Below are positions 25,066-26,279 of a stretch of 64,000 bases of DNA, piece after piece (position 1 is the first letter of the stretch; every line of letters starts with the position of its first letter). Position numbers and translations under genes: made by a program. Source of the DNA: Sphingomonas anseongensis (lineage in GTDB: Bacteria; Pseudomonadota; Alphaproteobacteria; Sphingomonadales; Sphingomonadaceae); assembly GCF_023516495.1 (NCBI RefSeq), contig NZ_JAMGBC010000001.1, positions 186,001 to 250,000 on the forward strand. The letters are read 5' to 3'. The notes under the pieces are model-generated. The model saw only the letters and a list, made by a program, of their open reading frames with translations. It was not told where the DNA came from and did no database searches.

Positions 25066-25278
25066 TTAGGGTACAGGGTCCGGCCCCTGACCACCCCAGG
25101 GGTGGCAACGCCCGATCCGTTTGAGGGCAAGCCAGCTCCCGCGGAGCGCGCCATAGCGCGACAATGCGGTGATCGCATAGGCGGAGCAGGAAGGTTGATA
25201 GCGGCAGCTGGGCGGAAGCACCTTCGAAGGGCCGAGCTGCCATGCCCGGCAAATCCAGATCAGCAGCCGCGTGATCAT
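25066..25278 (-). CDS. yidD: Membrane protein insertion efficiency factor YidD
   Basis: A 70-residue small, basic, membrane-associated protein that assists YidC. The family pattern is complete: CRYQPSCSAYAITALSRYG, then RIGRCHPWGGQGPDPVP, including conserved cysteines. The ATG at 25278 overlaps the rnpA stop as ATGA. Confidence 0.95.
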   Translation of the reverse strand: MITRLLIWICRAWQLGPSKVLPPSCRYQPSCSAYAITALSRYGALRGSWLALKRIGRCHPWGGQGPDPVP

Positions 25279-25739
25279 TGCCCGACCCGCTTCAGCGCCG
25301 ACGACAGGTCGTTGCGAAGCGCGGCGAAATCGCGCTCGATTCCGCCGGCGCGGCCGATCATCACATGGTCGGATCCGGCGAAGCCCTGGGCAGGGATGAT
25401 TTCCCTGGCGAGGGCGCGGAAGCGTCGCTTCATGCGGTTGCGGACGACGGCGTTGCCGATCTTCTTGGTTACGGTGAAACCGACGCGCCTCTGCGGATCG
25501 TCGTCGCGCCGATCGCGGACGAGGAGCACAAAGCCGGGTGTCGCGGCACGCCTTCCGGCGTTCGCGGCGAGAAAATCCGACCTTTTCTTGATGATTTCTA
25601 GGCGCTGAGCTTCTTGCGGCCGCGACCGCGGCGCGCGTTTAGCACCTTGCGTCCGCCGACCGTCGCCATGCGGGCCCGGAACCCGTGCCGCCGTGCGCGG
25701 ACCAGATTGCTCGGTTGAAAGGTGCGCTTCATCGCTCAT
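25275..25739 (-). CDS. rnpA: Ribonuclease P protein component, frame overlapping rpmH
   Basis: The protein subunit of RNase P, which matures tRNA 5' ends. The conserved core starts at [16 protein letters not shown] and includes [31 protein letters not shown] and ALAREIIP. Between the rpmH stop (25598) and this core there is no ATG, GTG or TTG in frame. The only usual start is the ATG at 25739, 7 nt upstream of the rpmH ATG, which gives 154 residues with a 47-residue N-terminal extension encoded out of frame over the whole of rpmH. A non-standard start (for example ATC at about 25596) would give about 106 residues. The 3' end overlaps yidD as ATGA. The gene identity is firm; the start is the open question. 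Confidence 0.88.
25598..25732 (-). CDS. rpmH: 50S ribosomal protein L34
   Basis: A 44-residue basic protein of the large subunit. It begins [20 protein letters not shown] and ends [11 protein letters not shown], a full-length L34. The ATG at 25732 has GAGG 8 nt upstream, a good spacing; the same GAGG is only 1 nt from the rnpA-frame ATG at 25739. The whole gene lies inside the rnpA open frame in a different phase. It is first in the order rpmH-rnpA-yidD-yidC-engB. Confidence 0.96.
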
Positions 25740-25756
25740 GCCTCAAGATTCAAAAG

Positions 25757-25781
25757 AAAAAGGGCCGCCGTTCGGGCAGCC
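25757..25781 (-). terminator. Terminator-like hairpin in the rpmH leader
   Basis: On the minus strand GGCTGCC (25781-25775) pairs with GGCGGCC (25769-25763), with one G-U pair and a 5-nt loop. CTTTTTC comes next, then TTTT. The 5-T run ends 24 nt before the rpmH ATG. It could end transcription of the upstream membrane-protein gene or act as an attenuator for rpmH-rnpA. Confidence 0.6.
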
Positions 25782-25821
25782 TCCCTATGGGCCGCGCCGA
25801 TAGAAGAGAGGTGCGGCAAAG

Positions 25822-26145
25822 TCAATCGCCGGAAGGTCCCGCCTGGCCCTTTTGCTCCTTCATGCGCTCGTATCGATGGCGCGCGTTTTTCCTCCTCAGG
25901 GCTCGGTCGGTCCAGTAACCCGCCTTCGGCTGCCAGCGCTTTAGCCTCACGTAGTGGCGCTTGGCCCACCAGCTCGTCTTCAGGATCAGCGCCACTCCGG
26001 GCGCGATCAGGAAGACGCCGCCCGGCCCCGGAATCGGCGCGATGATCAGCCCACCGATGATGAGGAGGACGCCCAGGGCGAACATTCCCCACTCCACCCA
26101 GGCTTTGTCGAGGAATCGCTGAACTTGCCGCCACCTAACCATCAT
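25822..26145 (-). CDS. PGPGW-type small transmembrane protein
   Basis: A 107-residue membrane protein with one or two hydrophobic segments (WGMFALGVLLIIGGLIIAP, then GVFLIAPGVALIL) around the motif PIPGPGG, resembling the PGPGW putative transmembrane family. A strongly basic cytosolic tail follows (WAKRHYVRLKRW, then RALRRKNARHRYERMK). The function is unknown. ATGs at 26145 and 26142 are both possible. It is divergent from comM and upstream of rpmH on the same strand. Confidence 0.75.
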   Translation of the reverse strand: MMVRWRQVQRFLDKAWVEWGMFALGVLLIIGGLIIAPIPGPGGVFLIAPGVALILKTSWWAKRHYVRLKRWQPKAGYWTDRALRRKNARHRYERMKEQKGQAGPSGD

Positions 26146-26279
26146 CGCGATGTGGTTGCAGAATGGCGTTCGCGCAAGCGGCTTGCGAATTCGGCGGGTG
26201 GCGGGCTAGCAGGGCCAATGCCGAGCTAGGGGGCCTGTTGTTTGCCTGTGAACGTCTAACCAGCCGGGGGCGGCGATAG

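Follow-up and report, generated by a model that had tools for sequence, protein, structure and literature searches.

Nesting of rpmH within the rnpA frame, and a proposed start of both genes from one ribosome-binding site, in Sphingomonas anseongensis and related Sphingomonadaceae

In the 64,000-nucleotide stretch of DNA from Sphingomonas anseongensis that was analyzed here (the window), the rpmH gene for ribosomal protein L34 lies entirely within the open frame of rnpA, the gene for the RNase P protein, and a single Shine-Dalgarno-like GAGG is seen near the two start codons. The two genes are probably both started from this one ribosome-binding site, at two ATG codons offset by 7 nt, with L34 favored and RnpA as the minority product. 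In the mechanism proposed, 30S subunits positioned by the lone GAGG would mostly choose the rpmH ATG, at a spacing of 8 nt, and would sometimes choose the rnpA ATG, at a spacing of 1 nt, such that one site could yield much L34 and little RnpA, the latter bearing a 47-residue extension as a by-product. The 1-nt spacing predicts weak initiation at rnpA; the cell requires far more L34 than RnpA. The original prediction, of an arrangement like that of Thermus with a putative coupling of L34 and RNase P protein translation, is supported as to the arrangement, with the amendments given below.

Organization of the nested genes

The locus has the minus-strand sequence TTGAGGC ATG AGCG ATG AAG CGC ACC, with the rnpA ATG first, the rpmH ATG second and 4 nt between them (ATGAGCGATG). 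Between the rpmH stop and the RnpA core the rnpA frame holds no ATG, GTG, or TTG, and, because a TGA shuts the frame just upstream, rnpA has no usual start before the conserved core other than the ATG at 25739. The containment of all of rpmH within rnpA, the 154-aa frame, and the out-of-phase extension of 47 residues were thus correctly predicted from the letters of the window (Table 1). PF00825 matches residues 47–152 of RnpA at 75.6 bits (cut-off 22.3; profile positions 4–108 of 109), and PF00468 matches L34 at 78.7 bits (cut-off 25) over its full length (1–44 of 44). The genome search found one rnpA, and the RNase P RNA was also found (285 bits). An AlphaFold model of RnpA built with 10 sequences has a mean pLDDT of 52.3; values are low over the extension and over much of the core, and the model is uninformative.

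Table 1. Features of the rnpA/rpmH locus, in positions of the window
Feature	Coordinates	Strand	Basis
rnpA frame, RNase P protein with N-terminal extension, 154 aa	25275..25739	-	open frame and PF00825
rpmH (L34, 44 aa), entirely within rnpA	25598..25732	-	PF00468
Proposed rnpA start ATG, 7 nt upstream of the rpmH start	25737..25739	-	conservation in the genus; low change count on the tree
rpmH start ATG	25730..25732	-	sequence
GAGG, Shine-Dalgarno-like; spacing 8 nt to the rpmH ATG, 1 nt to that of rnpA	25741..25744	-	sequence
In-frame TGA closing the rnpA frame upstream	25743..25745	-	sequence; frame open to -13
Stretch coding the 47-residue RnpA extension, out of phase over rpmH	25599..25739	-	open frame
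Two ATC codons, at 25595 and 25592; rival non-AUG starts	25590..25595	-	sequence

The cluster runs rpmH-rnpA-yidD-yidC, in the same order and orientation as ordinary clusters. A second tight overlap occurs within it, the ATG of yidD overlapping the rnpA stop (ATGA, 25275–25278, minus strand), and the gene preceding rpmH (25822–26145, minus strand) has a weak match to a PGPGW transmembrane family, at 19.9 bits, which is below the cut-off of 23.3. The phase of the overlap is itself constrained. As the ATGA at the rpmH start contains a TGA, the other phase over rpmH is closed, in all 238 usable loci of the sample described below, and any such rnpA/rpmH overlap must therefore use the phase seen here and in Thermus.

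Occurrence of the overlap among relatives

For the window's own genus, 71 genomes were searched and 68 matched; two loci (L118 and L126) are cut by contig ends, leaving 66 usable genomes. A start codon stands exactly at -7 from the rpmH start in every one of these (65 ATG and one TTG), the site being ATGAGCG in 61 and an ATG with some other spacer in four. The original prediction had asked whether relatives possess a normal start right after rpmH: in 64 of the 66 there is none and the frame is open, and because these 64 relatives agree, a sequencing indel in the window is unlikely. One of the two exceptions, L025, comes from a draft genome and appears to be frameshifted. In the other, L125 (genome G056), 283 nt separate rpmH from rnpA, which has a GTG of its own, yet the -7 ATG is retained.

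The wider family search covered 397 genomes, of which 381 matched, and loci were taken from part of them, among the matches listed and with high scores favored; as the sampled loci are non-random, the proportions that follow are not prevalences. Five of the 243 loci collected are without one of the two genes (L118, L126, L140, L152, and L160), and the 238 usable ones comprise 233 from 91 genera of the family and five from other families of the order. They were divided into class A, with no ATG, GTG, or TTG after rpmH before the core R, a frame open through rpmH, and an upstream start; class B, with a start after rpmH and a gap below 60 nt; class C, with a gap of 60 nt or more; and class D, with neither arrangement.

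Among the matches listed, class A accounts for 127 of the 233 family loci and 30 of the 91 sampled genera, and 123 of the 127 loci, in 30 genera, have a start codon at -7 (119 ATG, 4 TTG). In 53 of the 127, from 20 genera, the -7 codon is the only ATG, GTG, or TTG of the whole open frame before the core; in 115 of the 127, the distance from rpmH to a Shine-Dalgarno-like core was 8 or 9 nt by a simple motif search. The -7 start codon is present in 15 of the 51 class B, 7 of the 41 class C, and 1 of the 14 class D loci among the same matches, and hence in 22 of the 92 that have a later start. Of 80 named loci, the best among the matches listed for a query that included the RnpA extension, 79 are usable, 64 belonging to class A and the other 15 having a later start. 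The overlap recurs in records titled Sphingomonas, Sphingobium, Sphingomicrobium lutaoense, Allosphingosinicella, Chakrabartia, and others.

Beyond the family, all five loci from other families of the same order have a later rnpA start. From other alphaproteobacterial families 30 loci were taken (L327–L356); among the 27 analyzed, none belongs to class A and 26 have a start after rpmH, while L353 has a weak core match and no rnpA start called. A survey of the class, in which only offset 7 was considered and the denominators hold only rpmH genes that start with ATG and fit the pattern, covered 385 genomes, five of them from the window's family; 129 showed the rpmH-start pattern and three had an ATG at -7. 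Two of these three belong to the window's family, leaving 1 of 124 elsewhere, and in that sole genome from another family rnpA was not found downstream of rpmH. The arrangement had been predicted to have either arisen or been kept in this lineage; it is indeed found across the family, but its having been kept is the less likely course given its absence from the 27 analyzed loci of other alphaproteobacterial families.

Change at the -7 codon and alternative accounts of rnpA initiation

Where no later start exists the -7 ATG barely changes, and where one exists it changes freely. Changes were counted by parsimony on a tree of L34, the RnpA core, and YidC, to which YidC contributes most. In class A (n = 57) the three columns of the codon, -7/-6/-5, changed 4/1/1 times, as compared with 13 changes at -8 and 13–27 at positions -11 to -24; within rpmH itself, third positions averaged 12.0 changes and first and second positions 2.6. 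Where a later start exists (n = 57), the same three columns changed 17/17/18 times, like their neighbors. The definition of class A demands an upstream start, making this comparison partly circular, and the loci were hence regrouped using only phase and whether a later start is missing, which gave 6/4/4 (n = 60) versus 14/15/14 (n = 48). The spacer bases -4, -3, -2, and -1 changed 4, 11, 6, and 5 times in class A, and the slowness of -4, -2, and -1 means that part of the block could be conserved for some other reason.

The link between a -7 start and a missing later start is strong, but few independent events stand behind it. The independent-pairs test was not significant on the 125-row tree with YidC, where 2.4 of 18 supported pairs agree, 0.5 disagree, and 15.2 show no difference, nor on the 183-row tree of L34 and RnpA core, where the corresponding figures for six pairs are 2.7, 0.1, and 3.2. 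A table of genera (22/12/7/50) gives a Fisher p of 3.5e-7 and ignores relatedness; for these reasons the column-wise change counts are preferred to it.

That the independent contrasts are not significant favors an account in which the gene order is ordinary and the open frame a matter of chance, with the -7 ATG inherited without function and the overlap meaningless. By default, most loci of the family have the -7 phase open over rpmH, as do 40 of 51 in class B and 34 of 41 in class C, so that frame openness alone is weak evidence, and the later-start loci that still carry a -7 start codon point in the same direction. Such an account is nevertheless very improbable, as it gives class A loci no ordinary start for rnpA and does not accommodate a -7 codon that changes like its neighbors in later-start loci and unlike them in class A. 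Frames are, moreover, open more often where a later start is missing (130 of 132 in-phase loci versus 48 of 61 with one, relatedness ignored). It is the fixed -7 ATG together with the absent later start that chance fails to explain. A start codon kept at exactly -7 is equally unexplained if RnpA is produced by ribosomes that begin at the rpmH ATG and shift frame, or if its transcript is leaderless or internal, with the -7 ATG not serving as its start. The complete overlap of the two frames, one phase apart, favors such a route. Against it, a consensus scan gave no promoter-like site at 25500–26200, and we give it very little credence.

Initiation of RnpA after rpmH at a non-AUG codon, perhaps by reinitiation past the L34 stop, would give a protein of about 106 aa and reduce the 25739 ATG to a relic or to some other role. 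The original prediction had named an ATC as the main alternative start, and two ATCs (25595 and 25592) do sit where RnpA would acquire its usual length. Codons of the kind ATT, ATC, ATA, or CTG occur in the post-rpmH stretch of 91 of the 127 class A loci, and class D relatives such as three g101 loci are without a later ATG, GTG, or TTG or an overlapping start. The same four codons are, however, absent from that stretch in the other 36 class A loci, from 12 genera, three of which are also without ACG, AAG, or AGG. The codon three before the core R, where the class A definition excludes TTG but not CTG, encodes Leu or Ile in 124 of the 127 and Val in three, and start-like codons are not enriched there. 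In the window's genus, Leu codons of the form NTG make up 3 of 43 at that column, whereas the core has 325 of 637. Among 13 Leu columns this is the lowest in the genus, yet in class A loci elsewhere it ranks third from the bottom of 14, and a selective loss of NTG Leu codons behind rpmH is at most suggested. Nor does a non-AUG start explain why the -7 ATG changes so slowly; we regard such a start as unlikely, if still credible for the window taken alone, and initiation of rnpA at the -7 ATG is the preferred reading.

Eight loci, L087, L088, and L130 (g101) together with L077, L131, L133, L150, and L074, have neither a later nor an overlapping ATG, GTG, or TTG start for rnpA, and a non-AUG codon, for instance ATT, ATC, or CTG, seems to be required.

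If RnpA does start at the -7 ATG, its 47-residue extension seems to be tolerated, not selected, since no added constraint is found on the third positions of rpmH, which differ at like rates whether the overlap is present or not (0.411, 0.415, and 0.419). Selection on the extension sequence is not supported, on the same ground. Extension similarity exceeds that of codons resampled from class B/C usage, at 0.664 versus 0.505 in the genus and 0.491 versus 0.439 across genera, under a null that ignores relatedness and whose openness figure of 0.41, far under the 34 of 41 of class C, was not used.

Comparison with known systems and the leader upstream of rpmH

The rnpA/rpmH overlap of Thermus thermophilus is reportedly the subject of a paper by Feltens et al. 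in PNAS in 2003. Ordinary clusters with the order rpmH-rnpA-yidD-yidC differ from the one described here in that their rnpA has its own start after rpmH. In the accessible parts of PMC9841429, the Thermus site is given as AUGGAUG, with 1 nt between the starts and an offset of 4, expression from the T. thermophilus overlap is stated to have been shown, and the site is called the only case described before those of that paper; in the accessible parts of PMC4892627, two nested pairs are listed as known, that of Thermus among them. As far as these parts describe it, the Thermus locus is like that of the window in having rpmH wholly nested in rnpA, a lengthened RnpA (PMC9841429, PMC4892627), and an rnpA ATG a few nucleotides upstream of the rpmH ATG and in the same phase. 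One Shine-Dalgarno sequence serves both starts in Thermus, and for this role the window offers a single candidate, the GAGG. On the same partial sources, the window differs in its offset of 7 nt (ATGAGCGATG) versus 4 nt, in belonging to another phylum, and in that its overlap is known from sequence alone, whereas expression has been shown in Thermus (PMC9841429). The predicted description of the starts as 4 nt apart, as in Thermus, needs correction against that text, as it mixed two measures: 4 nt lie between the codons here, and 4 nt is the start-to-start offset there.

A further likeness is to the AUGUG/GUGUG sites of Escherichia coli pqiA and tamA, at which, according to the accessible parts of PMC9841429, two competing starts with close Shine-Dalgarno signals open two frames. 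The start codons overlap in those E. coli cases and are 4 nt apart here, and in the window, unlike there, both frames encode conserved proteins (PMC9841429, as far as accessible). In the accessible text of openly licensed papers, no report of an rnpA/rpmH overlap outside Thermus was found. The absence of the overlap from the analyzed loci of other alphaproteobacterial families makes a separate origin likelier, and the overlap is probably convergent with that of Thermus.

We can advance a broader proposal only tentatively, and consider it rather less probable than the shared start site itself: an alphaproteobacterial family may have convergently evolved the Thermus arrangement, with selection keeping the upstream AUG, weak as it is, and also removing start-like codons just after L34 within the window's genus, such that RnpA would be a small fixed share of L34 initiation at one ambiguous start site. 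If this is true, the restriction to one phase, the other being stopped by ATGA, would account for its use in both lineages. Both the choice between competing AUGs and the setting of RNase P dose relative to ribosomes become testable by means of related species with and without the overlap, and the annotation of rnpA starts in the family may deserve a check.

About 30 nt upstream of rpmH (25781–25753, minus strand) the leader holds a hairpin with a T-run that resembles a terminator, formed by GGCTGCC/GGCGGCC and followed by CTTTTTCTTT. The folding z-score of the leader is 0.03, and the sole Rfam match, ctRNA_p42d over the hairpin, is under its cut-off and was taken as chance. The hairpin could serve rpmH-rnpA as an attenuator or could terminate the gene that precedes them. 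Similar hairpins occur in 60 of 65 loci of the genus and in 121 of 166 other loci of the family, where shuffled sequences give 1.7 and 5.0, respectively.
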